A DNA stretch of 64,000 nucleotides from Cristatella mucedo (lineage: Eukaryota > Bryozoa > Phylactolaemata > Cristatellidae): positions 4,237,501 to 4,301,500 of the forward strand of contig WPIO01000028.1 of NCBI GenBank assembly GCA_009760855.2. Reading direction: 5' to 3'. A model generated the notes under the pieces. That model did no database searches, was not told where the DNA came from, and saw only the letters and a list, made by a program, of their open reading frames with translations. Both the position numbers and the translations under genes were made by a program. Of the stretch, positions 9,926 to 54,620 are shown in pieces (position 1 is the first letter of the stretch; every line of letters starts with the position of its first letter).

Positions 9926-9930
9926 TTCAG

Positions 9931-10240
9931 TCACGACATCTCCTGACTTGACCACATTTAAAAAGAAACTAAAAACGCACCTATTTATCACAGCATTTAG
10001 TGGGTCCCTGCGATTCGAACTATATGTGTTTACGCGTGCTGATACTGTGAATGCTGCCACTAACCATACTTGCATGCTGACCCAGTTAAAGTCACCCCCT
10101 AACCGTGTTATTCTTGTTGTTTATTGAGCATGCTACCACTAACCCTTCAATCGTGCTTCCTTAGCAGCAAATGTAAAGTGCCTAGAAAGAGATTGAGTTC
10201 CCTGAGGGTGCTTTATCAGATGAATTATTATTATTATTAT
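9931..10240 (+). mobile_element. LINE-A 3' end
   Basis: Encodes the end of the LINE-A C-terminal region (SPDLTTFKKKLKTHLFITAF) and then the full 3' UTR, finishing GAGATTGAGTTCCCTGAGGG and an (ATT)n tail. Directly abuts the LINE-C fragment at 9660-9925. Confidence 0.9.
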
Positions 10241-12080: not shown

Positions 12081-12700
12081 TAATAATAATAATAATACAT
12101 CTGATATAGCATCCTCAGAGCTCAATCTTTTTCTAGGCACTTTAAATTTTTTGCAAAGGAAGCGCGGTCGAATGGTTAGTGGTAGCATGTTTGATAGACA
12201 ACAAGAATGACACAATTAGGGGTGACATGCTCAGGATCAGCATGCAGGCGTGGTAAGTGGCAGCATGCACAGTGTCAGCACACGTAAGCACATAAAGGTC
12301 GAATGGCAGAGACCCACTAAATGCTGTGATAAATAGGTGTTTTTTATTTTTTTAAATGTGGTCAAGTCAGGGGATGTGACGAAGGTCGGGAGTGAGTTCC
12401 AGGCTTTGGGAGCATACGAACTGAAGGCATGGTCTCCAAAGGGCTTGAGGTTCGTACGAGGTATAGGTAAACAGTTAGATTCCGAAAAGCTGGTGATACG
12501 ATGCTTAGCCTGGTGGGGAAGTAGGTCTGATCGGTAGGTTGGAGACAAAGAATGAAGGGACCTTAAATTGAGTAACAAAACCTTGAAGTCAATGCGTTGC
12601 TTGACTGAGAGCCAGTGCAGGTCGGCGAGAAAAGGTGAGATGGTGTGACTGCGACGCTCGCGACAGACAAGCCTAGCTGCAGAGCTTTGCACCAGCTGTA
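12081..12700 (-). mobile_element. LINE-A C-terminal and 3' UTR, 5' truncated
   Basis: Minus-strand translation gives the LINE-A C-terminal region from QSSAARLVCRERRSHTISPF through SPDLTTFKK, then stop and the 3' UTR down to (ATT)n at 12081. The C-terminal frame is open over 12237-12692, so this is a fairly young copy. There is no catalytic RT core. Confidence 0.92.
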
Positions 12701-12794
12701 AGTTCCAGTGAATTTTAGGGTCGCTTGCCTCAGATTGAGCTGTTGTATTCGTAAACTAGGTTTAAATGTAGTTAATCAGAGTTGTCCCGGAATA

Positions 12795-15784: not shown

Positions 15785-16105
15785 ACAATGAAAAAATATA
15801 TATATATATAATATATAAATAACTAAATAAATATAAATAAAAAATAAATATATAAATAAAAATAAATAAATAAATATAAATAAAAAAAAAAATAAAAAAA
15901 AAAAAAAAAAATAAATAAAATAAAATAAAATAATAATATATAAATAAATATATAAATAGTATATAAATAAATAAATAAAAATAAAAATAAACATAATATA
16001 CAATATAAGATTGCCTGCTCTAGGATTCGAACGCGAGACTCGGTTTGGGCAGAGTGCGAGCACCATGCGCCTGGGCTAGGTACCCGGGAGCCACGCAGCG
16101 AGCGG
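15785..16105 (-). mobile_element. tRNA-headed SINE with long A/T tail
   Basis: Minus strand: a tRNA-like head with A-box-like TAGCCCAGGCGCATGG (near 16060-16078) and B box GCGTTCGAATCC (near 16021-16034), then AGAGCAGGCAATCTTATATT and more than 200 bp of TTTA/TTATT-type repeat down to 15785. Neither internal box is exactly canonical, and no aminoacyl-stem pairing is obvious, so I call it a SINE, not a tRNA gene. Confidence 0.6.
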
Positions 16106-17529
16106 ATATGGCATGGATCGAGGAAGCTACGCGAGGCTTCGAGAAGCTACGCGTCGCGACCTCGTCGAAATGCCAATCGCCAGCAGATGTCGCCAGCTCA
16201 CAGAAGTAACACACCGCAGCCGACCTACGCAGCCAACAGCCTCTGCCCAAGCTTAACTTCGCCCGTAACCCGAGCGGTGGCCGCGGGGCGTCTGCGGGTT
16301 TTGCGATCAGCCGACGTCCGCGAGCGTGGGCACGCGTGTCGCAGAAGGAGCAGCTTTTGCGTCACCTCCGCAGCTCCGGCCGCTGACGCGGAGGGCGCTC
16401 GTCGGCAGCGCGTCGTAGGACAGCCAGTCAGCCAGCCAGCCGCAGCGGTGGCGGCGCGCTGCCCATGGGCGGAGCGACTGAAATGCTTTCGCGCTTGGCT
16501 GCGCAAATTCCCGCCAGATCGGTCGGACGAGGCCGAAGGCGCGGAGGAAGCAGTAGCTGGACCGGCGCGCCGGCCACGGACCGGTCAGCCGGCACTCGAC
16601 GACGAGTGGCGCGCAAATCCACCACCTCCCATCTCCCGCCGAGGCAGCCGCGCATCGCGGCGGCCGCGGCCGCCTCGGCCGCTCGAGTGCCGCAGCCGCC
16701 AGATCGCTGCGGTGCCCCGGCTACTCCGGATCTCTCGATTCTCGATATTGGAACCGCTGTCACGAGCGTCGCTCGCGACGACTCGCTCGCGCGGCAACTA
16801 ACAGCATCGCTCCGCGCGTCAGCGGCGCCAGATGAGACGCGCTGTGGCTGCGGCTGTCGCGAGCGTCGACGACGCGCCCCCGAGAGGCGGATCCGACCAC
16901 TGGCTAGACGCGAGCGCATCGATTTTCTCGCGGAGCCGTCGCCGCCACGACGGACGACGAGATGAGCCCGCACGCGCGCTTGCGACTGGGCGAGACTCGC
17001 GTCGATGCGCGAGACGACGCCGCGGGCGACGGCCTTTCCGCTTCGATGGCGCGTCGAGCGCGCCGCCTCCCTCGCGACGCGGGGGGGGGCGGGTGGCGGC
17101 TAGCGGTGGCGCCACCGACCGGTGGGTGCGCTGGCCAGCGGTCGTCGGCAGGCGGGCGCGAGGCAGCCGCCGCGAGCGTTGCGTAACCCACTCGGGTGGG
17201 CGGGCCGCTGCCTTGGCGACCAATGGCCTTGCGCAGCGCCTCTGACGCTCGGCCCACAAAATGACGCACTTCCCTTTTTACCTGATTAACTTGTATCCTG
17301 GACATCAAACGATCTCGCTGCCGCATTGTAGCGCTGCCTCCGTCAGCTGCGTCGGAGCTCCCGACGTCTGCGCTCGTCGGCTGGCGTACGAGAGCTCCTG
17401 CCTTCGCACGGTAGGTCTCGCCGCCCAACTTTCGCCGACGCGCGCGGCCGTAGCCGCGGGCTGGGGTGTGGCGGCCGCAGCAGCGGCGCCGGCCGGTCGG
17501 TCGGTCGGCTGTTCGCTCCGCGTAGGGCA
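16106..17529. other. CpG-rich upstream region of GPB5
   Basis: Very GC- and CpG-rich, with long overlapping open frames in all six readings giving Arg/Ala/Ser-rich translations without domains. Probably unmethylated promoter/CpG-island-like DNA 5' of GPB5. No exon is recognisable. Confidence 0.5.
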
Positions 17530-17573
17530 GCGCTGGGCGGGCCGCGCGGCTTCGGACGCGGCCCGCCCAGCGC
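17530..17573 (+). promoter_or_regulatory. 17-bp-stem hairpin upstream of GPB5
   Basis: Perfect inverted repeat: arms 17530-17546 and 17557-17573 (GCGCTGGGCGGGCCGCG and its complement) around a 10-nt loop, ending 90 bp before the GPB5 ATG. It lies in the promoter or 5' UTR; if transcribed it would form a very stable structure able to affect translation. Confidence 0.6.
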
Positions 17574-17663
17574 AAACTGCGCGCGAGCGGTGCGACGCGC
17601 TGTCGCAAGGTCGACGACTGGCATCGACGGTCCGCCGCGGCGGTGGGCGACGGCGACTTGTAG

Positions 17664-18298
17664 ATGCGCGAGATGCCGCTCCTCCTCGTCCTGGCGGTCG
17701 TATCCGGCCAGGTGACCTTGCACCAGGCCGGGGTCATCGACCCGGCGACGACGCTCGGCTGTCACAGCCGCTCGTACCAATTCAACATGACGTCCGGTTC
17801 GTGCTGGGGCATGGTGAACCTCGAAGCGTGCTGGGGCCGCTGCGACTCGTGGGAGGTGAGCGCGCGGCCGCAGCGCCGCCGCCGCGCCGGCCGCCGCGTC
17901 CAGGCCGCAGCGTCGGCGTAGAGGCGGAAGCGACCGCCGCCGCGCCTCCGCCGCCGTCTCCGCTCCTCCCTTGGCCAGAAAGTGCGACGACCCGGGGCGC
18001 CGAGCGAGACAGCGACGCGCGCGCGCCCACTCGCGGGCAAGCCAACCGCGCCGCGAAGCGGCGGCTCGATTGGCGGCGCGATCCGTCGTCGTTCGGCTTT
18101 CAGATCGGCACGCCCAAGTATCCTCACTTCCAGAAGCACCATCCCGTCTGCGTGCACGAGGGTCGACGGGAGCGAAGCGTGGAGCTCACTCGCTGCGACG
18201 ACCCGAACAGCCCACCCGCCGTGATCAGGGTCACGGACGCGACAAGCTGCGCGTGCAAGATCTGCAGCGAGCGCGACACGCGCTGCGAAATGTACTGA
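17664..18298 (+). CDS. GPB5: Glycoprotein hormone beta-5 subunit (thyrostimulin beta)
   Basis: Secreted cystine-knot hormone subunit that pairs with GPA2 to form thyrostimulin, a ligand of LGR-type receptors. Coding exons are 17664-17855 and 18104-18298, joined by a 248-bp GT-AG intron (GTGAGC...CTTTCAG) in phase 0; the product is 128 residues. Residues 1 to about 20 form a hydrophobic signal peptide. Ten cysteines lie at 33, 47, 56, 60, 80, 95, 113, 115, 118 and 125, including the knot motifs CWGRC (56-60) and CAC (113-115); as in other GPB5 proteins, the seat-belt pair is absent. N41-M-T is an N-glycosylation sequon. The intron falls just after CWGRCDSWE, the position known for vertebrate beta subunits. 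An in-frame TAG directly precedes the ATG; Met4 (17673) has the better Kozak context. The TTGTAG before the ATG could also be an acceptor for a 5' non-coding exon. Confidence 0.94.
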
Positions 18299-18680
18299 AC
18301 GCCCGCTGCGTGCGTGCGTGCGTGCGTGCAGCCGGGCGTTCGGACGGCAGGAGCGACGCGCGGCGGCGCGTGCGCCGCCATCGCCGCGGCCAGCAGCCGT
18401 CGGCTGGCGTGAATGGCGCATCGAAGCGACGCCGCCTGCGGCGTCACCGCCCGACTTGCGGTCGGCCGCTCCCGGCGTGAACTACTAGCTCACGGTCACA
18501 CTGGTGCCGATGGCCGATGCCAGGAACCGAATCCGCGATTCGCAGCCGCCGTAACGCGCAGCCCATGATTTTATTATTATTTATGTTCACATTTGCTTAT
18601 ATGTTTATATGTTTATATTATTATTTAGTTATTATGTTGTTGTTATTGTTTTCCATCGTTCGACCAATCAAATGTCAATC

Positions 18681-18686
18681 ATTAAA
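18681..18686 (+). terminator. Candidate GPB5 polyadenylation signal
   Basis: ATTAAA, the commonest variant of AATAAA, about 380 bp after the GPB5 stop and followed by a T-rich/TG-rich stretch (TTAATGTTGTG). It is the first good candidate on the plus strand. Confidence 0.4.
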
Positions 18687-18734
18687 ACATTAATGTTGTG
18701 CCAAGAACCGTGTTTTATCTGGCCAAATACAGAG

Positions 18735-18850
18735 GGCTTCTCTCGCGCGCTCTCTCTCTCTCAATCCCATCCCTGTCCGCCTATGTGTCTGTCTCTCTCC
18801 ATCTGTCTCTTTCTCTTCTGTCTGTCTCCCTGTCACTCTCTCGCTCGCTC
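18735..18850. repeat. TC-rich low-complexity tract
   Basis: Interrupted TCTC/TCTG pyrimidine tract on the plus strand. Confidence 0.85.
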
Positions 18851-19044
18851 AAAAAGAAGCTGGCTGCACTAACTAGCCAGCGGGGCGTGATGAGCGGGGT
18901 GCCGCGGCCGCCAACCGTCGCCGCCATCTCGCCGACAGCGGGCAACACTAGACGCACGGTCTGCTTGAGACCAGAATCGTGCGCTCCCTTTGATCGCGAA
19001 CGAGACGCGCGCGCCTCCTGAGCAGAGACGGCCGGGTCGGCCTC

Positions 19045-19545
19045 AACCACATTCTGCTCTGACAGAGCTGCTCCGGCGGCGGCGGCTTTCTCTGCGTTTT
19101 CTAAGGCTGCGCTCTGCTCTGACGGAGCCGGCCTAGCTGATTGGCTCTCCCTATGCTTTCTAAGGCCGCGCTCTGCTCTGACAGAGCCGGCCTAGCCGAG
19201 TGGCTCTCCCTATGCTTTCTAAGGCCGCGCTCTGCTCTGACAGAGCAGCTCTAATGGAAGCTCTCTATAATCATCTCCATTGGCCGCGTTCTGCTACGGC
19301 AGAGCCGTTCTAACGGTGCCCCCGGGTGCGCTTCTTACGGCTGCGCTCTGTTCTGACGGGGTCGCTCTAGCTGTGGCTCTCTCTCAGCGCCACCAACGGA
19401 CGCACTCTGCTCTGACAGAGTCACTCTAGCGGCGGCTTTCTCTCTCTACGCCACCTTCGGCCGCCATCTGCTCCGATGGCGGCTATCTCTGCGCCTCCAT
19501 TAACAGCGGCTCTGCTCTGACAGAGCCGCTCGCGCAGCAGCCGCG
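19045..19545. repeat. ~59-bp tandem array with inverted repeats
   Basis: About eight to nine units, each centred on CTCTGCTCTGACAGAGC or a variant, then GGCTCTC(C/T)CTAT and (C/T)TTCTAAGGC(C/T)GCG. The two best units (about 19107-19225) are nearly identical; outer units are diverged and vary in length. The core GCTCTG-6 nt-CAGAGC can fold as a hairpin. The array sits between the convergent GPB5 and GPA2 genes. Confidence 0.85.
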
Positions 19546-19736
19546 CGCGCTCTCTAGCGCGACGCAGCCAGAGGCTACGGCAGCTTCGGCGAGTCCAATT
19601 TCCACCGGTCGGCGGGTCGACCTTTTGGGGCTGCTATGTGTGCAAAGCGTACGCGTACGCGTTAAGCGAAAGAGGAGACACGGGAATGTGAAGAGACGGA
19701 GGAGGCGACAAAGGCGAGCTGCATAAATACCAACCG

Positions 19737-19742
19737 TTTATT
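19737..19742 (-). terminator. Candidate GPA2 polyadenylation signal
   Basis: Minus-strand AATAAA about 640 bp after the GPA2 stop. The intervening DNA (19743-20378) would be the 3' UTR; it contains GGC/GCC-rich runs near 20158-20290 and no other gene that I can see. Confidence 0.4.
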
Positions 19743-20378
19743 CTCAAACGCGCATTCTCTTAAGGAAGATAGTCAAGCCTCGATCTCGAGACACCGTCCA
19801 AAAAAATGACTCATGTCGCAGACAACCGGCGTAGCGTTTGACGCAAACGTTACGCCTTCAAGCCGATTATTAAAGATTCGGTAGTAGTATTCGCCGGACA
19901 GTTGGCGCGGCTCTCACAAATATTGTGAAGTTTTAATGTGCTGCGGGGCTTTGCAGCACGGTGGCAACTACTGGGCAAACCTGACATACAGTATATAACT
20001 GCGCGAATGAGGCAAGTTTGGGTTACAAAATATAAATAGCGATGGCGACGGCGGCAGGAATGCTGGTTGAGGGTGTAGCCCATTACGGGCCAGCAGGCAG
20101 GCAGACGAGCGGGCGGGCTGGTTTTGTCGGACGGACGGACGGGATGCCGGCGACGACGACGGCGGCGGCGGCGGCCGTCGTCTCGGGGACGGTGGCTGCG
20201 GCGATGCTCGGGAGCCGGCCCGACGTCGAGCGACGCGAGCCGGCGACGGCGGCGTATGGCTCTTCCGGCGGCGGCGGCGGCGGCGGCGGCTTGGATTTTT
20301 TTCTGCAGCTTCTTTCTGCAGCTTCTTTCTCTCTCTCTCCACTCGCCCACGCCGCGAAGCGCTCGTGCAGCGGCCGAG

Positions 20379-21584
20379 CTAGTAGTCGGTACGGCACATG
20401 GAGCAGCCGCAGCTTCTCGCCGTCCTGAGCGTTCTCGTGCGGACGCCGTCCCAGCAGTTGAGCTGCACAGTGATCTGCAGAACAGCAACGCGAGCGCTGC
20501 GTCAGCACTGCATCCCATCTTGCAAAGCGGCGGCGGCGGCGGCGGTGACGGCGGCGGCGGCGGCGGAACGGGCCGGACTGCGATCGCGGACTAGGGCCGC
20601 GGCGGCTCTGAGGCTCTCAAAGAGGCGACGCTGGCTGCACAAACCCCCCCCCACCACCTCCCGAGGGCGGCCGTCTGGCGGCGGCGAGCGCAGCCGCTCC
20701 GCATGCGAGATCTCGGCCGACCGTCGTCGTCGCGAGGAGCGGCGCTCGCCGCCGCAAGACGCCGAGTAGCCACGAGCACGGCTAGCGGCGCCCACGGCGG
20801 AGGCGAACCTAGGCGCGGCGCCGCGCCGGCGGCAGCCGCGCGACTGGCGGTCGCGCTCCTTTTCGTGCGCGGTGGCCTCGACTAGGGAAAGCCGCCTGCG
20901 AGCGGGAGCCCGAGGGCGCGCGACGCGACGCGAGGCGGCGCGTGCGGCCACTCACGTCTTCGGACGACTGCATAGAGCAGCACCGGCCGCGGGACAGGAC
21001 GTCCTGGTTGGGAAACAGCACCCTGTACGAGAGCGGCAGCGGCACCGAGAATGACTCGCAGAATCCGCGGCACGCTTTGACGCCGACGCGAACCGTCAGG
21101 CAGCCGAACTCTTTTATGTCGACGTCGTATCCTGGAAGGCAAACGGAGAGGAACGGTGGGCGTGAGGCGGCGCTCTGGCAGTAGGGGCGACCGTTGCCGC
21201 CGTCGGCGACCGTCGCAGCGAGCGAGTGAGCGTCGGCTGCTGCTGGCCGGCCGGCGCTCACGCCGTCGCCGGCGTCGCAGGCCATGACAGCATCGGGCGC
21301 TCCTCAGCAGGGGAAGCCGTCGCCCGCGGAGGCGTCGAGACGCGGAGCCGCCTCGACTGGGACGACGCGAGCCGCGACCACGAGAGGGCCGGGGGGCGGG
21401 GAGCCGAGAGAGCGCGCGCGCGCGCGCTCGCGCGCTCAAGGAGGTCGATTTTGCCGAAGCGCCGGCACGTACCGACTAGGTGACAGCCGGGTCTTTGCCA
21501 CGGGAAGGTGGCCGCCGACGACGACAGCAGAGAGAGTGCGGCGACAAGAGCTCCCAAAGTGACGGTCATATCCAATAGGGCCAT
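20379..21584 (-). CDS. GPA2: Glycoprotein hormone alpha-2 subunit (thyrostimulin alpha)
   Basis: Alpha-type cystine-knot subunit, expected to be secreted and to pair with GPB5. Minus-strand coding exons are 21473-21584, 20956-21131 and 20379-20474. Intron 1 (341 bp, phase 1) runs GTACGT...CCTTCCAG and intron 2 (481 bp, phase 0) runs GTGAGT...TCTGCAG; the spliced frame gives 127 residues. A TAA lies five codons before the ATG, which has G at -3 and +4. Residues 1 to about 25 are a signal peptide ending SSSAA. Motifs are WQRPGCHLVG (29-38), ACRGFCES (57-64), RCC (87-89), VQLNC (99-103) and SCGCSMC (117-123). Ten cysteines lie at 34, 48, 58, 62, 88, 89, 103, 118, 120 and 123, as in GPA2. I see no N-X-S/T sequon, whereas vertebrate GPA2 is glycosylated. 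The partner gene GPB5 is 2.1 kb away, tail to tail. Confidence 0.94.
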
Positions 21585-21676
21585 CGCTGCGTATCCTTAT
21601 CGTCCGTCTGGTTTTACGCGCACAGTTATCGTCAGCGAAGCGCCGGCGACGGTGAGCTGCTAGCGGTGAGTGTGGA

Positions 21677-21683
21677 TTAAATA
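21677..21683 (-). promoter_or_regulatory. TATA-like box of GPA2
   Basis: Minus-strand TATTTAA, about 93 bp upstream of the GPA2 ATG, in an otherwise GC-rich region. The position would leave a 5' UTR of roughly 60 bp. Confidence 0.4.
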
Positions 21684-21695
21684 GCGCTGGTCGAT

Positions 21696-21715
21696 CACGT
21701 GAGCGTATCCACGTG
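21696..21715 (-). promoter_or_regulatory. Paired CACGTG E-boxes upstream of GPA2
   Basis: Two palindromic E-boxes, 21696-21701 and 21710-21715, separated by 8 bp and lying just upstream of the TATA-like box. CACGTG is bound by bHLH factors such as USF, Myc/Max and CLOCK/CYCLE; which factor, if any, acts here is unknown. Confidence 0.45.
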
Positions 21716-21719
21716 GTCA

Positions 21720-23680
21720 AGCCGACTAGAGCTCATCCCCCCCCCAGGGGCCACTAACTAATGCGGCTAGCACAGCTAACCAGCGGCGCCTTAGCATAGT
21801 CGCATCCGTTCTCAAATATAGCTCTGCACTCACTTTTAATACTTCCTCGCCTTCAACGGAGTTGAAGACAATGTTTACAATTGTCCCAGCCGTCGCCTGC
21901 CCAATCAAGGTGGCCCGCCACCGCCGCTGCCGCCGCCGCTCCTGCGGTGGGCGTCCGCGACTGTGCGGCGCACGGGTGCGATCGTGTCGCTCTAGTACGA
22001 CTGCGCCCTCGCTCAGTGCGTTCGATGCTCCGGCCGCTGCAGCGAGGCGGGTGTCCTTCAGCGGCCCTCGCGGGAGCTTCAGCTAAGGCGACCGGCCCGA
22101 CCCGCCACCGACGGCTAACGCGGCCGCCGGGTACGATTGGCCGGCCGAGAGTGGCCGGCCTTGCGGGATCGGTGTGAGGGCCAGCGGGCCAGAGGCCAAC
22201 CGCTGCCAAGCGCGAGGCCGGGAGAGAGGAGAGTTGAGAGCCGTTGCTCGCAGCGCTCCCGTCCGTTCGCATATCGCAGCTCCACCGCCGCCGACGCCGA
22301 CGCCGCCGAGCGTAGCAGTGAGAGCGGCAGCGAAGCCTCCGAGTGCAGCGCAGCCTCCGCGGTCGAGAGTCGGTCGGTCGTGCGGCGGCCGACCGACGGC
22401 GACTGTCCGACGACGCGAGGCACGTCGCTCAGCGTTCGCTCGCGCGCCCTCATTAATGCTAACGCTCGAGCGCACGTGGACGCGCAGACGCTCGGCGCGC
22501 GTGCGACCACTCGCTCGCCGACAAGCGCTCCGCCCCCGCCGCCGCCGTCCAAACGCGTACGGCGGCGGCGGCGGCGATGTCCAAGTCGATAAGCGGCGGC
22601 AGCGACAATCAGCCCGCGGGAAGGCTCGCGCGGAAGCGCAGATCGCTGCTGCCGCAAGAAATAAACCTGACCGCAATCGTTTAAAAATAGAAGGCGGCTG
22701 CAAATTTAGCTTTGCTCCTTTTATTCGAATTCGTAGCCGCTCAGCTGCCGGTGATACCCGCGGGTCAGGCGATACCGAGCGGCGGCAGCGCGGCCGCCGC
22801 GTGCACCCGCTGACGCCGAGCGCCGACATCGCTCGCGGCCGTGTTGTGGTCGCAGCTTCCTAGCACTGGAGCTGCATCCGCCGCCACCGCCGCCGCCGCC
22901 GCCGCAGATGCTACCGAAGCGCACCAGCTGGCGACTGCGGCGCGCGACATCGGGGACTAGCTCGCGGCGGCGCTGGCTCCCCGCTCGGCGTCGCGCCCGC
23001 TGCTAGTCGTCCGTGCGGCGCGGCAGGCGATACCGAGCGGCCGCGCGCGCTCGGGGTCGGGCGAGGGCTGCGCTATGTGCTCTCTCGCCAACACTCGAGA
23101 TGGCCGGCCGGGCCAGGCCGCCGGCGGACGACCGCTGCCGCGCGCGCGACCGCGCCTAATGCCGCTTTCCGCCGTCGGGCGCGGGCGGGTGCGCTCGAGC
23201 GCGCGCTCGTGGCCGGCGCGAGGGCGTAGCGTGGTAGCGTGCGAAACTGTGTCGCGGTCAGAAGGCATACGTTCGCGGAAGCGCACCAAAGGTGAACGGT
23301 GAAAAGGTCCGAGCGCTCGCGCGCGCGAACAGAGGCCGGGGCGAAGCGAGACGTCCCGCGCGTCCGGTAGGCACGCGTGCTCCGGAGCGGCTGCAGACGA
23401 GTTGAGAGCTGGCTCGTGGGCGGCCGGCGAGAGCCGCTCCAGCGTCAGATCGACGCTGGCGCGTGTGCCGGCGACCGGTGGAGGCGCTGCAGTCATGCGA
23501 CGAGCGACCGAAGAAGCGGACTGCCATCGTCCGCTCGCGACGTGGCACCTGCTGTCGCGCCATCGGAATCGGCGGCAGCGCTAGCTGGGCTCGGCGGGAC
23601 GCGCGCCAGCGTCGATCTATCGAAGGCAATGAGATTTTGAGTATCGACTTAAGAGCTGCGGCTACCTAAATGCGTACGCA
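21720..23680. other. CpG-rich DNA, no recognisable gene
   Basis: GC- and CpG-rich, including GCC/GCG trinucleotide runs near 21920, 22535, 22560 and 22880-22905. A 35-codon frame at 22577-22684 (+) has an ordinary-looking composition and a basic stretch, ARKRRS; it could be a first exon but has no support beyond that. Confidence 0.4.
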
Positions 23681-23812: not shown

Positions 23813-24600
23813 TGAAGCCAGCCGATTTCATCTGGCGTAAAAAAGAACAAGCGAGAGTTATAGCAGAGTCAGGAGGACAGTCAAGAAAGTAAGAAGCTCA
23901 CTAGCGGCTGCGTACGGCGCATAGAAAAGAAATTACCCGAGTCAGCAGTAGCAGGAGAGATGGTATTGTTGCTGCGCGAGAATTTTGGAAATTAGTTGCC
24001 CATCTTATACGAGCGGAAGCAACACCGGACAAATTGGAAAGGCTGGCGCTCAAAATTGGCTCTGCCAGCATATCTCTTGTTGAATCAACTCGAAATCTAG
24101 GTGTCATGTTCCAAAGTGACCTCTCGTTAGACGACCACGTCAGCTCCATAATCAAGTCTGCCTACTTTCAGCTACATAACATTGCTAAAATTCGGGCTTG
24201 TTTAGATAAGGATACCACATCTAAGTTGGTCCATGCATGCGTGACATCCCGTCTCGACTTCTGTAACTCACTGCTTGCTGGCCTACCGGCATGTGCGATC
24301 AGGAGATTACAGCCGGAGCAAAACTCCGCAGCTCGGCTTGTCTGTCATGAGCGTCGCAGTTGCCACATCACACCACTTCTCGCTTACCTGCACTGGCTAC
24401 GAATCAAGCAACGGATCGACTTCAAGGTTCTGTCGCTCACTTTTAGGTCACTTCATTCAATGGCTCCAGCCTATCTCTCAGATCTACTCCCCCACCAGGC
24501 CAAGCATCGTACCACCCGCTTTTCGGAATCCAACAGTTTACCAATACCTCGTACAAACCTTAAATCCTTTGGAGACCGTGCATTTAGTTCGTATGCTCCC

Positions 24601-24957: not shown

Positions 24958-25138
24958 TTTGCATGCTGACCCTGTGCATATCACCCCTATCCATATTATT
25001 CATGTTGTTTATCAAGCATGATATTACTCACCATTCAATCGCGTTTCCCTTTGTAGCAAATGTAAAGCGCCTAGAAAGAGATTGAGTTTTCTGAGGGCGC
25101 TTTATCAAGTGCATTATTATTATTATTATTATTATTAT

Positions 25139-27460
25139 AGGCTTCCCGTTGGCTGTCGCGTAGGGTTTTGCTTGTACCAATCAGGAGCACGCGCTGCGGC
25201 TGCTGGCCGACACTCCGTTGGCTGCAAGCGACGCCGGTAGACGATAGTGCCTCGCGCACTGTGGCTAGGATCGAGCGGTCCTGACGCTAAGGCTGCGATT
25301 GTCGGCAGGATCGCTCGACTCCGGCAAAAGCGCATTGCGAGTGCACGCTCTCCGAAGCGGGAGTCCTCCGACTCCCGATCTCCCAAATCGCCTCTCCGAC
25401 TCCACCCGACTCCCCGCGCGTCTCCCACGAAAGCGCCCTGTGCGCGTCCGCCCCGCAGACGCAATGGTGCTCGATTCGTCGCGACGCGGTGCGCGCGCGC
25501 GAGGCGACCGAAGGCTCCGGAGCGCGACCGCTCCGCTCAGCTGCAGTGCTAGTTCGAGTGTCAGGCATGCAGCTCGCGAGCCGCGCTCCGCACAGCACAG
25601 CGCTGTGCTGTGCGGAGCGCGGCTCGCTCGGGCTATCGCTTCGCCGAGGTGAGCTGCCGGCGCCAGCTCTCTACCGCAAGCCCACTCTCGCTCCCGGTGT
25701 TGCCCACGGCGTTGCCGCAGACTGCGACGGAGACGCACGCGCAAGCCTCGCTTAGGGACTCGGCGCCCTCGCGTCGAGAGGCGGTCGGCGACGGCCGCTC
25801 AATTACCGGCGCCCGTTCCCCGGCGCCCGCTCCATTCGCGGGGGACCGAGAGAACAATGGCGGCTTCACAATGGCGCCAGAGATTCTTCCTCATTTGCTC
25901 GTTCTCCCCGTGGCTGCCGGCCGAATCTCGCGGGGCGTCGACCTCGCAGGCGCGCGCGCGCGCGCGCAGTCTCCGAGAAGGCGGGCGCGATCCCCACTGG
26001 AATCGGTCCCGATCGCTAGCAAGCGCTCACGCTAGATCGCTCGGCTGACGACAGCGCGGCGCCCCCACTGCGTGCCGCCGCGCAGCCGGCCTCCGCGATG
26101 CGCTCGCTCGTCGCCGTTGGCCGCAAAGACGGATCGCGCCCACGTAGCGCTCTCGCCGTTCGATGAGCTCGTGCGAGCGCCGGACTCGGCGCCCGGAAAA
26201 AATGGCGCGTTACGAGAGCGCTGGCGGCGTCGCGGGAGGTCGAGTCCGGTCAGCAGGGCGGCAGCGCTCGGCATCGGCCTCGACAGCTCGTTCGTCCGCG
26301 CTCCGCTCGAAAGGGAGCGACGCGCGGCCGGCTTCTTTAGCTGCGCGCAAGAACGCCGCCGGTAGGCAGCGCTGCGACGCTCCGGTGCGTGTACCTCTCG
26401 CCGGGTGCCGAGCGGTTCGGCCGGCGACGCCGCCGATCGCCGTCCGCGAGCAGCTCGGATAGGAGAGACCGAGATGCCGGCCGCACTCGGCCGCTTCGCG
26501 CGAGAGGAGCGACCCCAGGCGACGCGACGCACTCAGCGGACGCCGCTGACACTACGGCTGCAGCCGGCGGATCGGTCCTGCAGCGCGCTCCTCGACTTCG
26601 CTGAAGTTTGCTTCTCGCTCGCAGCGTTCCTTCTCTGCTCGCCGTCGAAGGACGGCGAACTCAGGCTGGCGCGCGCGCGCGTACTAGCGGCGGCCGGCTG
26701 CGCCGAAACAGCGGCGCCGCTGAGGGCATCGGCGCATCCCGGATGTCTCGGATGTGGCCTTTCGGCTCGCCCGTGCGGCGCCGACGCGTCCGACGGGTCA
26801 GTCGGTGCGCGCCTGTGCGCGAAGAACCTCTGGAACCCATAGAGCCTCTATAGACCCTCATTTTTGGCCGCTGCGGCTGCTCCGACCGCCGAGGCGGCCG
26901 GCCGGCCGGCTGAGGCGCAACGTCCCTGGGCGCACTCTGAGCGGTCGCGAGCGGAGCGTGCGACTACCGCGCGCGCGAGCGGCGGCTGCGAGCGGCGGCG
27001 GCTGCGCGCGTCCTCTAGTCGCTATTGCGACGCGCGAGTCGCGCTTTTTTCGCTCGTCGCGCTCCGACGGGCGACGCGCCCTGGGGCGACGCAACTCGCG
27101 CCGCTAGGACGCGGCCTCGCCACTGCGCGACGGTCCTCTGCCACCAGCTTCGCGCGCGACCCTATCGCCGAGCGATTTGGCGGTGGCGGCGCGCGCGAAG
27201 GCTATCGTGCCGCGGACGTCGCGCGCTCCCGCAGAGAAGTGGAGAGCGTCGCCGCCACTCGACGCGCGACGGCCGCGCAGCCGCTCGCTCCACGGGGTTG
27301 CCCGTCGTTCCACCGTCTCGTGACGGGATCGACGCGGACCGGGCGCGTCGCCGTCGCCCTTCGCGGCGTCCAGCGAATATTGGAAGCGAGTAGTTTCGCG
27401 CCAAAGGCAAGCCACCAAGGAGCCCCTGTCAAAATTCGTACGTGTTCCGTCTGCTGAGTC
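25139..27460. other. CpG-rich block, no recognisable gene
   Basis: GC- and CpG-rich with many overlapping long frames. The frame at 25857-26048 (+) starts with a strong Kozak context (GAACAATGGCG) and reads MAASQWRQRFFLICSFSPWL, hydrophobic near its start, so it might be a first exon with a signal peptide; I cannot assign it. The rest looks like CpG-island DNA. Confidence 0.4.
25576..25627. repeat. 52-bp perfect palindrome
   Basis: Two 26-bp arms without a spacer, centre between 25601 and 25602, running GCGAGCCGCGCTCCGC... to its exact complement. It could extrude as a cruciform, or be a fold-back artefact of sequencing or assembly. Confidence 0.95.
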
Positions 27461-28451
27461 TGATGCCGCGCGTTTGCTTGAACTCAGTTCGAAAGAATTA
27501 CCTATTTGGAAGCTCTATGAGAAAATTGTCGGCCTTATAGACCAGCCACTCTGGAATCCGAAGTTTCGCCGAATGCATCGACCTGCTCTAGCAGCAGTTC
27601 TTGACTTATCGAAAACAGGATCGCGCTTACCCCCTTCGAAGAAACACCTGGAATATCAAAGTCAAAGGCATCTCGCAGAGACGTGTGCATATTTAATATT
27701 TTTTTATTTTATTTTTTACTTTTTATATTTTCCTCATATTTTTGCATATTTATATTTTGTAGTAATATTATATATCGAATATTATGACAAATATTACACC
27801 AACATTATACCAATAATAAGATATCAATCTTGTCTACCAAATGTAGACTCCTCTCTAGAATTATGGTGGCCACCCGAGAGGCGCTGCTGGACTTTCGCGG
27901 GTGGGTGGATGAGTGGGGGGGGGGGGGCTAGGGACTCAACAGAAACACATCTCATTTAGCCTCGCTGTGATCCCGCGCTGGGAAAACCACGAACTTCCTG
28001 TCTGAATGTAATAAACGTCTCTCAGTGACTTAACAATTGTGGTACCTTCAGGGTCGCTGCTGTTTCGTACCTCACGCATTGCTGATGTTAAGCATCGTCT
28101 TGCAATTCCTTAGCTTGAACGTAACTAATAACAGCCTTTGGCAGCCAACCTCAAGAGACCGACTTCAATCTGGAGCTTTAAAATTAATAAAAAATAAAAA
28201 TAAATAAATAAATAAAAATAGCTTTAAAATGAAGCAGTACGAAAAGCCACCTTACCTTTAGCCAGAAGGGGACCGAGCGTCGAGATTCCAGATGGGGGAT
28301 TGTCATGAGGGATTCCAGATGGTGGGCATTGCAATGGGAGCATTTTTATACAACAAGCGGGAAGGTCCTGTGGATTCCCTATGCTTTCTCATCCTAATGG
28401 TGATCGTCAGGTTGTTACTATGTAACGACGGCGCGGGCTAAACCAGCCAGC
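27461..28451. other. AT-rich DNA, no recognisable gene
   Basis: Composition drops abruptly to AT-rich after 27.46 kb. T-rich at 27690-27800, a G13 run at 27915-27927 and an AAAT-rich run at about 28185-28220. An open frame at 27474-27959 is unassigned and runs through the low-complexity tract. Confidence 0.45.
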
Positions 28452-32219: not shown

Positions 32220-33163
32220 TACGACGGCACTCGCCATAGTCTTAAAAATCGAAACTGCCGCTTAACATCACTGCTCAACACCAACGTGCACAGGCTGCCT
32301 GTGACGCAGCCCGTCGACTTAAAGGTTCTTACACTTGCCGCTGGGTGCCTCCAGTCTCTTGATCCGGCCCATCTATCTGAATTAGTATAGCGTAAGGCCT
32401 CTGGGAACACCAATTGCTCGTCTAACTCTGGTCGATTGGTTGCGCGCCCCAACTTCAAATGTCTTGGCGGCAATGTGTGTTCAGTTACTGAAGTTCCAAA
32501 GCAAGCAACTCAACTGCCGACTAATAGCGCGTGTCCTGATTTGAAGACATTCAAAAAGAAGCAAAAAACTCACCTGTCCCTCGCAGCCTTCCCTCCGTCT
32601 GAGTGAGTTGCCATTTTTGTGCGCTTGCACGTGCAACGAGACGGCTTGATTATTGTAATTCTCTTTTGGGTGGACTACCAAAAAAAGCAAATAGGCCACT
32701 GCAGATGGCTATAAATATGGCTGCAAGGCTAGTTTTCAAGTCCCAGAGGTTTGACCACGTGTCTCCTCTGCTAAAAGGTACGACGGCTACCGGTTGATCA
32801 ACGGATACAGAGCAATGTTCTTACGCCGACCTTCAACGCCCGCCGCGGCTTGGCTCCTCCATACCTAGCTGAACTGCCGCACCAGTTTCAGCCTCCTCGT
32901 GCCCTCAGGTCCTGTATAGACAATAAATTAGCTATTCCATTCCTCAGTTTAAAGACCGTTGGCGACAGAAGCTTTAGCCCTGCAGGTCCTAGACTGTGGA
33001 AATCGCTTCCACAATCCTTACGCAACGACAGCTACTCTCCTGCTGCCGACTATGGCTCATTCTTTTCAGCGGTTCTGATCTGCTACTTCCTTGCCACTCA
33101 CTACCTCAACTGCTCTCCTGGCTCTGCTATGCTTTCCACTTTCCCTTTGTTGCATGAGACATA
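32220..33163 (+). mobile_element. LINE-B C-terminal half, degenerate
   Basis: Contains RLDYCNSLLGGLPKKANRPL, INMAARLVFKSQRFDHVSPL, then after frameshifts APPYLAELPHQFQPPRALRS and GPRLWKSLPQSLRNDSYSPA. Part of the order is scrambled near 32520-32600, where a LINE-A-like CPDLKTFKKKQKTHLSLAAF lies before the RLDYCNSLL block, suggesting a composite. It abuts the (ATT)n tail of the next LINE-A copy. Confidence 0.85.
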
Positions 33164-33925
33164 ATAATAATAATAATAATGTACTTGATAAAGCGCCCTC
33201 AGAGAACTTAATCTCTTTCTAGGCGCTTTACATTTGCTGCAAAGGGAAGTGCAACTGAATGGTAAGTAAAATCATGCTTGAAAAACAAACAAAATGAATA
33301 ATATGGTTAGGGGTGACATGCAGAGGGTCAGCATGCAAATGTGGTTAGTGGCAGCATGCACAGTGTCAGCACGCATAAGCACGTGATGGACGAATCACAG
33401 GGACCCACTAAATGCTGTCCTAAATAGGTGTGTTTTTATGTTCCTTTTAAATGTGGTCAGGTCAGGGGATGTTCTGACGCAGGTCGGGAGGGAGTTCCAG
33501 GCTTTGGGAGCATACGAACTAAATGCACGGTCTCCAAAGGATTTAAGGTTTGTACGAGGTATTTCTAGACTGTTGGATTCCGAAAAGCGGGTGGTACGAT
33601 GCTTGGCCTGATTGGGGAGTATGTCGGAGAAATAAGCTGGAGCCATAGAATGAAGGGACCTAAAAGTGAGTGACAAAACCTTGAAGTCAATCCGTTGCTT
33701 GACTGGTAGCCAGTGCAGGTCGGCGAGAAGTGGAGTAATTTGGCAACTGCGACGCTCACGACAGACAAGCCTAGCTGCAGAGTTTTGCACCAGCTGCAAT
33801 CGCCTGATCGCACATGCTGGTAGGCTAGTAAGCAGTGAGTTGCAGAAGTCGAGACCAGATGTCACGAATGCATGGACCAACTTAGACGTGGTATCCTTAT
33901 CTAAGCAAGCCCGAATTTTAGCGAG
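33164..33925 (-). mobile_element. LINE-A C-terminal copy, open frame
   Basis: Minus strand: KLVHA-like start, then FVTSGLDFCNSLLTSLPACA, QNSAARLVCRERRSCQITPL, LADLHWLPVKQRIDFKVLSL and on to SPDLTTFKRNIKTHLFRTAF, open over 33395-33880, then the full 3' UTR and (ATT)n. This is among the best preserved LINE-A 3' halves and serves as a local reference; the RT core is missing through 5' truncation. Confidence 0.95.
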
Positions 33926-37200: not shown

Positions 37201-38379
37201 TCAGCTAACCCTCGAGCCAACCTAGAATCCTTTGACGGTGACCGTGACCGTGCAGTAGCAGAGGCAGAGGCGTTTCTGCGGTCCGCACGCAGCGACCGCT
37301 GCGGCGGCGGCGGCTCTCAAGCCTGAGCGGCTTGTAGGGCGCCTTCGCTGCAGCGACAATGAGAGATTGCAGTTGGAGAAAGGCGACAAGCCGCGCACGC
37401 CTCCGCGCCTCCGCGCCATAGATGGCAGCTGCGACCGGGGCGGGGAGAACCGTGGCCCAGGGCCGAGTAGCCATTGAGGCGGGCGCGCGCGCGCGCGCGC
37501 TGGAGGAGGCGAAGTGGGCTCGCCAGACTCGCTCGAGCGGCGATGCTTTACATCATGAATGAGCCAAGACGCCGAGTGGGCACTGCTGTAGAAGCGGGCG
37601 AATTCCCACGCGCGCGAACGCCGCCGCGGATCGGCTGCGAAGAACAAACGGCGCTCACAATCTCTCATTACCGGTCGGGGCCTCATGCGTCACAGTCGTG
37701 CCGCCAGAGCGCGCGCGCGCTCGAAGTTACGGCCTGCGCGGATCGACGGGGTCGGTGGCGGCTACGCGGCCGACGAAGAAATTCTGCGTCTGGGAGAGCG
37801 CCGCGAGCGACGGTTTGACGCTCGCTCTAGTGCTCGCGAAGGCTCGCGTCTCTCCTTGACCTACCCTCGCTTTCGCCTCTCCTCGAGGGACGCCAGACCC
37901 ACGAGCTGCAGCCGCCACTTTGGCCAGGCCGTAGCTGGTGTGATGTTCGGCTAGGCCAATAAAAATATACGCAATTTTTCTGACTGGATAAAAAATCCAG
38001 AAAAAGCCGCACGTTGCAAACATTTACACTACACAGCTTAAAAGTTAAATACGCACGAACAGGTTCAGATATAGATTGGTACCGGTAAATGCATTATATT
38101 TACATACATAAAAAGGCTTAAAGTTATATATTTGCATACATACACGTTTGGGGATGCAAACCCGTAATCTTAAGCCAAAGACACGCACAAAAGCCTCGCG
38201 CAGGCTCATAGGCACGTTCGCTCAAGCAAGCAGACAAACTGATACAAACGTGTGTTGAGCTCTGAGCTCTGTCTGTATATCTTGTGCACAACCATAAAGT
38301 TAGCAACGCGAGCTATACCTCACCGCAGGGTAGCCAATACTGGTAAAACTAGCGCCTCAAAGCGCTGCCGATGTAGCAC
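37201..38379. other. CpG-rich patch then AT-rich DNA, no recognisable gene
   Basis: 37210-37920 is GC- and CpG-rich with a GC dinucleotide run near 37480-37500; 37930-38370 is AT-rich. The Arg-rich frames in the first part lack domains. Confidence 0.45.
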
Positions 38380-38943
38380 GTAGGAGCAGCTCCAACGTAG
38401 GAGCAGCTCCAACGCAGGAGCAGCTCTAACGTAGGAGCAGCTCCAACGCAGGAGCAGCTCCAACGTAGGAGCAGCTCCAACGTAGGAGCAGCTCTAACGC
38501 AGGAGCAGCTCCAACGTAAGAGCAGCTCCAACGTAGGAGCAGCTCCAACGCAGGAGCAGCTCCAACGTAAGAGCAGCACCAACGCAGGAGCAACTCCAAC
38601 ATAGGAGCAGCTTCAACGCAGGAGCAGCTCCAACGCAGGAGCAGCTCCAACGTAGGAGCAGCTCCAACGTAGGTGCAGCTCCAACGTAAGAGCAGCTCAC
38701 ACGTAAGAGCAGCTCCAACGTAGGAGCAGCTCCAACGTAAGAGCAGCTCCAACGTAGGAGCAGCTCCAACGTAAGAGCAGCTCCAACGTAGGTGCAGCTC
38801 CAACGTAAGAGCAGCTCCAACGTAAGAGCAGCTCCAACGTAGGAGCAGCTCCAACGTAAGAGCAGCTCCAACGTAGGAGCAACTCCAACATAGGAGCAGC
38901 TTCAACGCAGGAGCAGCTCCAACGCAGGAGCAGCTCCAACGCA
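38380..38943. repeat. 17-bp minisatellite, about 33 units
   Basis: Unit GTAGGAGCAGCTCCAAC with frequent variants GCAGG, GTAAG and CTCTAAC. Because 17 is not a multiple of 3, all minus-strand frames read the same 17-residue motif (such as ELLLRWSCSYVGAAPTL) in shifted phase and remain open, giving three overlapping ORFs; these are repeat artefacts. Confidence 0.97.
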
Positions 38944-39519: not shown

Positions 39520-39671
39520 TTCGTTAGAGGTAAGGTGCTCGCTCTTCACTATCGAGGTCGTGGGTTCGAATCGTGCTGCGGGTGATCCTTTGATGCCAAC
39601 TGCGAGAGGTGGTGATAGCCGTCAAGGCTCTTCTGCCACCCTGCAAATGAGACTGTTAAATCAGCTAATAT
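39520..39671 (+). mobile_element. SINE-A copy
   Basis: AGAGGTAAGGTGCTCGCTCT, B box GTGGGTTCGAATCGTGC, body GAGAGGTGGTGATAGCCGTC and end AGACTGTTAAATCAGCTAAT followed by TTTATAAT. It ends head-on against the tail of a minus-strand LINE-A copy. Confidence 0.88.
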
Positions 39672-40277
39672 TTATAATACTGACAATAATAATGCACTTG
39701 CTAAAGCGCCCTCAGAGAACTCAATCTCTTTCTTGGCGCTTTACATTTGCTGCAAAGGGGAGCGCGATTGAATGGTGAGTAATTTCATGCTTGATAAGCA
39801 ACATGAATAAACAACATGGTTAGGGGTGACATGCACATGGTCAGCATGCAAGTGTGGTTAGTGGCAGCATGCACAGTGTCAGCACGCATAAGCACATAAA
39901 GGACGAATCACGGGGACCCACTAAATGCTGTCCTAAATAAGTAGTACTAGTTTAAGTAGTACTAGTTTTAGTGCTAGTTTTAGTACTAGTTTTAGTACTA
40001 GTTTTGAAGTAGTACTAGTTTTGAAGTAGTACTAGTTTTACTACTAGTTTACTAGTTTTTACCGCGTTAGTGAGGGGTGCCACTCGCAACTGTGTCAGCG
40101 TAATTGATACCAGGGGCAGAGGCCAAGTCATCCAATACCCGAGCTCTACTAGTACTAGTAGTTTTTAAGTTCTTTTTAAACGTGGTCAAGTCAGGAGATA
40201 TTGTAACGCAAGTCGAGAGTGAGTTCCAGGCTTTTGGAGCATACGAACTTAATGCACGATCTCCAAAGGATTTGATA
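39672..40277 (-). mobile_element. LINE-A 3' end split by an insert
   Basis: Minus strand: SSPDLTTFKK-region coding end and flanking sequence at 40165-40277, then, after the insert at 39941-40164, the 3' UTR and ATT-rich tail at 39672-39940. The two parts join exactly as in the 33.2-33.9 kb copy. Confidence 0.88.
39941..40164. repeat. AGTACTAGTTTT-rich insert
   Basis: 39941-40060 is a degenerate array of (T)AGTACTAGTTTT units; 40061-40146 is non-repetitive (starting ACCGCGTTAGTGAGGGG); 40147-40162 returns to TACTAGTACTAGTAG. TACTAGTA is self-complementary, so both ends can pair. Confidence 0.85.
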
Positions 40278-42049: not shown

Positions 42050-42872
42050 ACAGCGACGCTCACGACAGACAAGCCTAGCTGCAGAGTTTTGCACCAGCTG
42101 CAATCGCCTGATCGCACATGCTGGTAGGCCAGTAAGCAGTGAGTTGCAGAAGTCGAGACGAGATGTCACGAATGCATGGACCAACTTAGACGTGGTATCC
42201 TTATCTAAGCAAGCCCAAATTTTAGCAATGTTATGAAGCTGGTGCAAAACTCTGCAGCCAGGCTTCTCTGTCATGAGCGTCGCAGTTGCCACATTACTCC
42301 ACTTCTCGCCGACCTGCACTGGCTACCAGTCAAGCAACGGATTGACTTCAAGGTTTTGTCACTCACTTTTAGGTCCCTTCATTCTATGGCTCCAGCCTAT
42401 CTCTCCGACATACTCCCCCATCAGGCCAAGCATCGTACCACCCGCTTTTCGGAATCCAACAGTCTAGAAATACCATGTACAAACCTTAAATCCTTTGGAG
42501 ACCGTGCATTTAGTTCGTATGCTCCCAAAGCCTGGAACTCCCTCCCGACCTGCGTCAGAACATCCCCTGACCTGACCACATTTAAAAGGAACTTAAAAAC
42601 ACGCCTATTTAGGACAGCATTTAGTGGGTCCCTGTGATTCGTCCTTCACGTGCTTATGCATGCTGACACTGTGCATGCTGCCACTAACCACATTTGCATG
42701 CTGACCCTGTGCATGTCACCCCTAACCATGTTATTCATTTTGTTTGTTTTTCAAGCATGATTTTACTTACCATTCAATTGCATTTCCCTTTGAAGCAAAT
42801 GTTAAGCGCCTAGAAAGAGATTAATTTCTCTGAGGGCGCTTTATTAAGTACATTATTATTATTATTATTATT
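42050..42872. mobile_element. LINE-A copy with 5' inversion
   Basis: 42050-42234 is minus strand and encodes LHNIAKIWACLDKDTTSKLV through QNSAARLVCRERR; 42235-42872 is plus strand and resumes with LVQNSAARLLCHERRSCHIT, continuing to the C-terminus, 3' UTR and (ATT)n. The two parts meet head to head with about 45 bp (LVQNSAARLVCRERR) present in both. This is the geometry of a twin-priming inversion during target-primed reverse transcription. Confidence 0.92.
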
Positions 42873-42969
42873 AAATGCGATGCTCAAACAGTCACCACCT
42901 GTAACTTCTTCTAGCTGCTGTGCTGCTCACGTCTACCTACGCCCTCTTGCGATATTCGCTTTGTGCATC

Positions 42970-52868: not shown

Positions 52869-53398
52869 TAATAATAATAATAATAATAATAATAATATTG
52901 CACTTGATAAAGCGCCCTCAGAGAACTTAATCTCTTTCTAGGCGCTTTACATTTGCTGCAAAGTGATACGCAATAGAATAGTAAGTAAAATCATGCTTGA
53001 AAAACAAAAAAAATGAATAACATGGTTAGGGGTTACATGCACTGGGTCAGCATAAATGTGGTTAGTGGCAGCATGAACAGTGTCAGCACGCATAAGCACA
53101 TTGAGGACGAATCACAAGGACCCACCAAATGCTGTCCTAAATAGGTATGTTTTTAAGTTTCTTTTAAATGTGGTCAGGTCAGGGGATGTTCTGATGCAGG
53201 TCGGGAGGGAGTTCCAGGCTGTGGGAGCATACGAGCTAAATGCACGGTCTCCAAAGGATTTAAGGTTTGTACGAGGTATTTCTAGACTGTTGGATTCCGA
53301 AAAGCGAGTGGTACGATGCTTTGCCTGATGGAGTAGTATATCTGAAAGATAGGCTGGAGCCATAGAATGAAGATACCTAAAAGTGAGCGACAAAACCG
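52869..53398 (-). mobile_element. LINE-A C-terminal end
   Basis: Minus strand from LSLTFRYLHSMAPAYLSDIL through SPDLTTFKRNLKTYLFRTAF, then 3' UTR and (ATT)8-like tail at 52869-52898. Open frame over 53112-53414. Confidence 0.93.
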
Positions 53399-53589: not shown

Positions 53590-54620
53590 TGACTTGAATG
53601 AATAGAGATCACCCGAGGAGCCTCTGAAATATGGGGCACCTCGGGGCTCTGTGCTTGGTAACGTTCTTTTCACGGTTTATACTCTCCCACTAGCCGATGT
53701 TATTGCCAGGTACAACTTAGACTTTCACTTCCATGCAGATGACACTCAGTTGTACCTTTACTTTGATTCCTACCAGCCCTCCAGCACGTCTAATTCTCTC
53801 AACTTCCTTGCTGCATGTATTGATGATATCAGCACATGGATGACAGCAAATTTTCTTAAATTGAATGATGATACAACGTTCCAAATCGCCTCTGCCAGCA
53901 TATTTCCTGTTGAATCTGCACGAAATCTGGGTGTCATGTAACAAATTGACCTTTTATTAGACGACCACATCAGCTCCACAGTCACGTCTGCCTAATTTCA
54001 GCTACATAGAATTACGAAAATTCGGGCTTATTTAGACAGGGATACCACATCTGTATTAGTCCATGCATTTTTGACATCCCGTCTCGACTGTTGTAACTCA
54101 TTGCTTGCTAGTCTACCGGCTTGTGCAATCAGGCAATTAGAGCCGGTGCAAAACTCAGCAGCTAGGCTTGTTTGTCGAGTGCGTCGAATCACAGGGGCCC
54201 ACTAAATACTATGATAATTAGCTCACCATTTAGTGGGTCAATGTGACTCGTCCTTTGTGTGCATATATATAATTCATTTGTAGAGCGCCCCAAGATAACT
54301 TAATCTCTATTTAGGTGCTTCAAAAATGCCTCGGAGCTCGAGCCCACGACCTCAGCCAGACCATGGTCGGGCCGAGCAACTTAACCGCTGGACCAAACCA
54401 GCTCGTGTGCTTGTGCGTGCTGACACTGTGCATACTGCCACTAACCATATTTGCATGCTTACCTTGTGCATGTCACCTTTAACCATGTTATGCTTGCTGT
54501 CATTGAGCATGCTATCACTCATCATTTGATCGTGCTTTCTTTGCAGCCAATACAATGTGCCTAGAAAGAGACTAAGGTCTCCGATAGCGCTATAAACAAA
54601 TGTATTATTATTGTTATTAT
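53590..54620 (+). mobile_element. LINE-A RT fragment with intact ADD, deleted and rearranged
   Basis: 53620-53940 encodes the RT palm: GAPRGSVLGNVLFTVYTLPL and FHFHADDTQLYLYFD, with the catalytic Asp pair kept, then CIDDISTWMTANFLKLNDD. The post-RT block continues to SAARLVCRVRR at about 54180. There the C-terminal part is lost and replaced by a fold-back: CGAATCACAGGGGCCCACTAAAT (minus-strand sense) followed by ATTTAGTGGGTCAATGTGAC. A SINE-B interrupts the 3' UTR at 54262-54405, and the tail ends in ATT repeats at 54602-54620. Stops and the deletion make it non-functional. Confidence 0.9.
54262..54405 (-). mobile_element. SINE-B copy inserted in LINE-A
   Basis: Minus strand: GCTGGTTTGGTCCAGCGGTT, AAGTTGCTCGGCCCGACCAT, B box GTGGGCTCGAGC, tail GAAGCACCTAAATAGAGATT, AAGTTATCTTGGGGCGCTCT. 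Flanked by TTTGTGTGCAT and CGTGTGCTTG, a possible short target duplication. Confidence 0.9.

Follow-up and report, generated by a model that had tools for sequence, protein, structure and literature searches.

A pair of small genes in the bryozoan Cristatella mucedo raises the question of whether this animal carries both subunits of the hormone thyrostimulin, GPA2 and GPB5, at a single locus. We analyzed a 64,000-nucleotide stretch of its DNA, referred to here as the window, which covers positions 4237501 to 4301500 of its contig in an assembly of 572 Mb and 688 contigs. It almost certainly contains an intact locus for both subunits of an invertebrate-type thyrostimulin. GPB5 lies on the plus strand and GPA2 on the minus strand, and these adjacent genes converge tail to tail, with their stop codons 2,080 base pairs (bp) apart. 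The start codons fall exactly at 17664 (GPB5) and 21584 (GPA2), and the distance from one to the other is 3,921 bp. No further gene was recognized between them among the listed open reading frames (ORFs), which were considered without a Pfam scan. The coordinates, motifs and splice frames (Table 1) all agree with a preliminary description of this DNA, which had proposed the convergent pair.

GPB5 has two exons and a coding sequence of 387 nucleotides (nt), which encodes a protein of 128 amino acids (aa). GPA2 has three exons and a coding sequence of 384 nt, and its protein has 127 aa. Ahead of the ATG, a stop codon in the same frame starts at a distance of 3 nt in GPB5 and 15 nt in GPA2. All three introns of the two genes have GT-AG ends, and the reading frames are kept. 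Each subunit has ten cysteines, and the motifs that had been named for the two families were all found, CWGRC and CAC in GPB5 and ACRGFCES and SCGCSMC in GPA2. Each protein had also been credited with a signal peptide. What stands of this is a hydrophobic N terminus in both (in GPB5, a core at about residues 4 to 14), judged by simple hydropathy and not by a signal-peptide program, and the signal peptides themselves are putative.

Table 1. Features of the GPB5/GPA2 locus and of the repeats in the window (positions are those of the window)
Feature	Position	Strand	Description
GPB5 coding exon 1	17664..17855	+	ATG, signal-like N terminus, cysteines 1-4, CWGRC; ends ...CDSWE at a phase-0 GTGAGC donor
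GPB5 intron	17856..18103	+	248 bp, GTGAGC...TTTCAG, phase 0
GPB5 coding exon 2	18104..18298	+	cysteines 5-10, CAC, stop TGA
Putative GPB5 polyadenylation [poly(A)] signal, first past the stop	18681..18686	+	ATTAAA, TG/T-rich stretch downstream; motif only
Further plus-strand ATTAAA	19869	+	motif only
GPA2 coding exon 1	21584..21473	-	ATG, signal-like N terminus, cysteine 1 (PGCHLVG)
GPA2 intron 1	21472..21132	-	341 bp, GTACGT...TTCCAG, phase 1
GPA2 coding exon 2	21131..20956	-	cysteines 2-6, ACRGFCES
GPA2 intron 2	20955..20475	-	481 bp, GTGAGT...CTGCAG, phase 0
GPA2 coding exon 3	20474..20379	-	cysteines 7-10, SCGCSMC, stop TAG
ATTAAA, nearer the GPA2 stop	19932-19937	-	motif only
Putative GPA2 poly(A) signal	19737..19742	-	AATAAA; motif only
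AATAAA further out from GPA2	18570-18575	-	motif only
Possible GPA2 promoter	21670..21715	-	motif resembling TATTTAA, with CACGTG boxes at 21696 and 21710 (14 nt apart); motif only
Imperfect tandem array, unit about 60 bp	19053..19530		CTCTGACAGAG palindrome recurs in five exact copies and is present nowhere else in the window; lies between the predicted transcript ends
Retrotransposon-like copies, among others	9930-10240, 12081-12712, 24031-24600, 33161-33921		self-comparison
Retrotransposon-like copies, among others (continued)	39651-39943, 42234-42874, 52878-53397, 59046-59964		self-comparison

The plus-strand protein is a GPB5. In a protein search, 6 of 15 candidates matched at an E-value of 1e-3 or less, and all six carry PF00007 (Cys_knot). 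The two named ones, from Allacma fusca (41% identity) and Aplysia californica (43%), are both of the glycoprotein hormone beta type; the other four are unnamed. GPB5 scored 105 bits against the Allacma protein, where the best cysteine-fixed shuffle reached 36.2 bits (498 of 500 shuffles gave a score), and 100 bits against the Aplysia protein, where the best reached 32.3 bits (492 of 500). The protein is above the Pfam Cys_knot cut-off, and the spacings 8-3-19-14-x-1-2-6 among its ten cysteines are common to all six homologues. By a criterion from PMC4341566, it is of the cystine-knot beta type that lacks the additional pair of seatbelt cysteines found in vertebrate glycoprotein hormone beta chains. 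The top match in a search of solved structures was chain B of 8ENB (E 3.3e-5, 26.9 bits), and the sole other match was at chance level. In a 25-row tree, GPB5 groups with the GPB5s, including that of Caenorhabditis elegans, with a support of 98 out of 100. Locust bursicon-beta aligned with it weakly, at 23 bits. Two features set this GPB5 apart from the six homologues. Its first loop, from cysteine 1 to cysteine 2, is shorter, at 13 residues rather than the 18 or 23 of the homologues. It also has one N-glycosylation sequon (N41) within the knot domain; P0005 is the sole homologue with a sequon, which lies upstream of its knot, and for the protostomes that it examined, PMC4341566 reports GPB5 to be without a sequon.

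The minus-strand protein is a GPA2. BLASTP aligned it with the locust GPA (Table 3 of PMC3061863, a source available in part) over 116 aa, with 40% identity and 89 bits. In the shuffle test this comparison gave 92.0 bits, with 37.7 as the top score among 500 cysteine-fixed shuffles; by this test, neither this likeness nor those of GPB5 are due to chance. The two proteins share the spacing of their ten cysteines (13-9-3-25-0-13-14-1-2), which is identical in 43 of 118 listed relatives. These relatives derive from a search with the locust GPA row added, which found 178 of 352 candidates at an E-value of 1 or less; they are the 120 rows listed, minus two spider rows labeled as toxins. Named rows among the matches listed are mostly called thyrostimulin alpha-2 or GPA2, or have generic-domain or hypothetical names, the exceptions being the two toxin rows and one row that also has an enzyme label. 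All 118 relatives aligned with GPA2 by direct BLASTP, at 61.6 to 100 bits (median, 85.1). GPA2 is also above the Pfam Cys_knot cut-off. In the tree, it is on the opposite side from the GPB5s, with the GPA2s. It stands next to, and outside, a group of 13 further rows of GPA2 type, of which 12 are from named arthropods and the last is unnamed; on a long branch as it is, this position would fit an animal that is not an arthropod. No N-glycosylation sequon was found in GPA2. Because 63 of the 118 listed relatives likewise have none, a sequon is not defining for GPA2; the available part of PMC4341566 reports a GPA2 sequon in the protostomes it examined.

Several results weigh against the assignment of GPA2. 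With its sequence alone as the query, the protein search found 0 of 41 candidates at an E-value of 1e-3 or less. The added locust row inflates the profile E-values and tilts the matches toward arthropods, and we therefore relied on the direct BLASTP alignments. Against Pfam Hormone_6, GPA2 reached 16.7 bits, under the cut-off of 25. This family was not seen in the precomputed Pfam column among the GPA2 matches listed; therefore, it is seemingly not defining for invertebrate GPA2. A Hormone_6 search of this genome gave no match, but it was also silent in 14 of 14 controls and is uninformative. GPA2 clears the Pfam DAN cut-off (31.1 versus 22 bits). Its branch in the tree is long, and the likewise long branches of norrin, locust bursicon-beta and C. 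elegans GPA2 lie on the same side; the tree tool warns that joins of such long branches may be false.

The DAN score and the place of norrin and bursicon-beta in the tree would fit a minus-strand gene that encodes another cystine-knot protein, of the bursicon, norrin or DAN/gremlin type. Norrin and the DAN proteins share the cystine-knot fold, and norrin is a weak solved-structure match of GPA2 (E 0.0014). However, its 21.6 bits come next to 35.9 bits for the top match, 8ENB chain A, with vertebrate alpha chains at about 16 bits, and are far under the BLASTP scores of the listed GPA2 relatives. Chain A carries the label "Bursicon"; we take 8ENB to be the GPA2/GPB5 dimer of C. elegans. A paper on a C. 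elegans alpha2/beta5 structure appears, by its title, among the references of PMC10319355. The DAN model is also carried by many GPA2 rows among the matches listed. Bursicon alpha/beta is, like thyrostimulin, a heterodimeric cystine-knot hormone with linked genes (in certain insects, according to the available part of PMC4079206). However, locust bursicon-beta, the sole bursicon chain compared, gave 11 bits and no meaningful alignment with GPA2, which shares 40% identity and its cysteine spacing with locust GPA. A norrin, DAN or bursicon identity was rejected on these scores, which include no direct comparison with bursicon-alpha, gremlin or noggin. The chance that the minus-strand gene is such a protein is close to nil, and the identities first proposed hold, as the top matches of the two proteins are GPA2 and GPB5.

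It is also very improbable, if slightly less so, that the pair is real but that at least one of its genes is degenerating or arose recently by duplication of a working pair located elsewhere. The cysteines, splice sites and frames are all intact, and third-position guanine-plus-cytosine (GC) content is high (0.88 in GPB5 and 0.80 in GPA2). A tblastn search found no second copy of either gene in the 64-kb window, to which this check was confined. A further possibility is antisense regulation of one subunit gene by the other or, as had been suggested, overlap of the 3' transcripts. The genes do converge at a short distance, and the outer motifs, the further ATTAAA on the plus strand and the AATAAA further out from GPA2, would mean overlap if used. 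However, the first motif past the GPB5 stop and the two nearer the GPA2 stop place the predicted ends about 1 kb apart, with the tandem array between them, and so do not support the suggestion. Because the outer motifs exist, overlap would be possible though it is not indicated, and we consider it quite improbable. By motif, the two genes of the thyrostimulin pair would share neither a start region nor a terminator.

Linkage of the two genes had been noted for several bilaterians. This was right, and print puts it more strongly. PMC4079206 describes the two genes as "almost always" near each other in bilaterian animals, and PMC3280201 has them adjacent in most invertebrate genomes; Nasonia and the leech Helobdella are named in this literature as lacking parts of the system. 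The linkage found here is thus ordinary. We met no statement on tail-to-tail orientation in the available parts of PMC4244043, PMC8990981, PMC6752823 and PMC11521371, which is a gap in the search and not proof of novelty. The Cristatella pair resembles known invertebrate GPA2 and GPB5 (locust and Drosophila GPA2, Aplysia GPB5 and the C. elegans pair), with about 40% identity, like cysteine spacing, two neighboring subunit genes and no seatbelt cysteines.

A GC-rich domain around the genes, contrasting with the flanks, had been described, and the contrast is real. From 16001 to 23500, GC in 500-bp bins ranges from 0.50 to 0.75 and exceeds 0.6 in most of them; CpG observed/expected is 1.2 to 1.46 in all bins but one (0.93 at 19001). 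At 40 to 64 kb, GC is 0.41 to 0.48 (2-kb bins) and CpG observed/expected is 0.86. The CACGTG hexamer of the possible GPA2 promoter was found 14 times in the window, versus about 16 expected at equal base frequencies, and is thus not over-represented. A second GC- and CpG-rich block lies at 25001 to 27500 (GC, 0.57 to 0.72; CpG observed/expected, 1.25 to 1.6). A gene or promoter may lie unnoticed in this block, where none of the few ORFs tested had a Pfam match.

The region had been called repeat-rich, which is true of the window but not of 16 to 23 kb, where the local array alone repeats. When the window was compared with itself, not with the whole genome, 3 of 212 repeat pairs touched 16 to 23 kb, all inside the array (19053-19476), and no retrotransposon-like copy was found there. 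It is conceivable, though we think it unlikely, that selection keeps the pair together through a cis-regulatory or CpG-rich chromatin domain that extends over both genes, clear of the flanking retrotransposons, with the palindromic array as a boundary. The flanks of the gene pair hold many copies of a retrotransposon-like element, about 75 to 98% identical. Its peptide looks similar to the C-terminal part of the reverse transcriptase of an L2/CR1-type long interspersed nuclear element. An RVT_1 match at 53606-53938 (E 0.0015) was below the cut-off. A separate tandem array at 38378-38941 has 33 copies of a 17-bp unit, ACGTAGGAGCAGCTCCA, with 90% matches.

The window has 182 stop-to-stop ORFs of at least 90 aa, and 40 of them were compared with Pfam for neighboring genes that might show synteny; none gave a match at the curated cut-offs. 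ORFs within 9.5 kb on either side of the gene pair were inspected by eye only. Among the weaker Pfam matches, RVT_1 alone made sense, and we put others, such as TFIIA (E 0.0043) and Cytochrom_C_asm (E 0.011), down to chance. Scans of the window for tRNAs and Rfam families found none.

Each gene, if expressed, would yield a small secreted cystine-knot subunit. By analogy with the family, the two chains would pair and activate LGR1, and each subunit may also act alone. In the available part of PMC10319355, recombinant C. elegans chains raised cyclic AMP via FSHR-1 together or singly, and single subunits each activated the receptor. PMC4341566, also available in part, holds that the missing seatbelt argues against stable secreted GPA2/GPB5 dimers. 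Both reports weigh against the reading as a paired hormone, and the pairing of the subunits here is therefore inferred. The two genes probably became neighbors as an ancient tandem-duplicate pair, mostly kept together in bilaterians. The locus agrees with the published view of descent from a tandem pair with rare separation. It is one more clearly readable example of GPA2/GPB5, previously unannotated, for which the orientation, exon phases and candidate terminators are now given.

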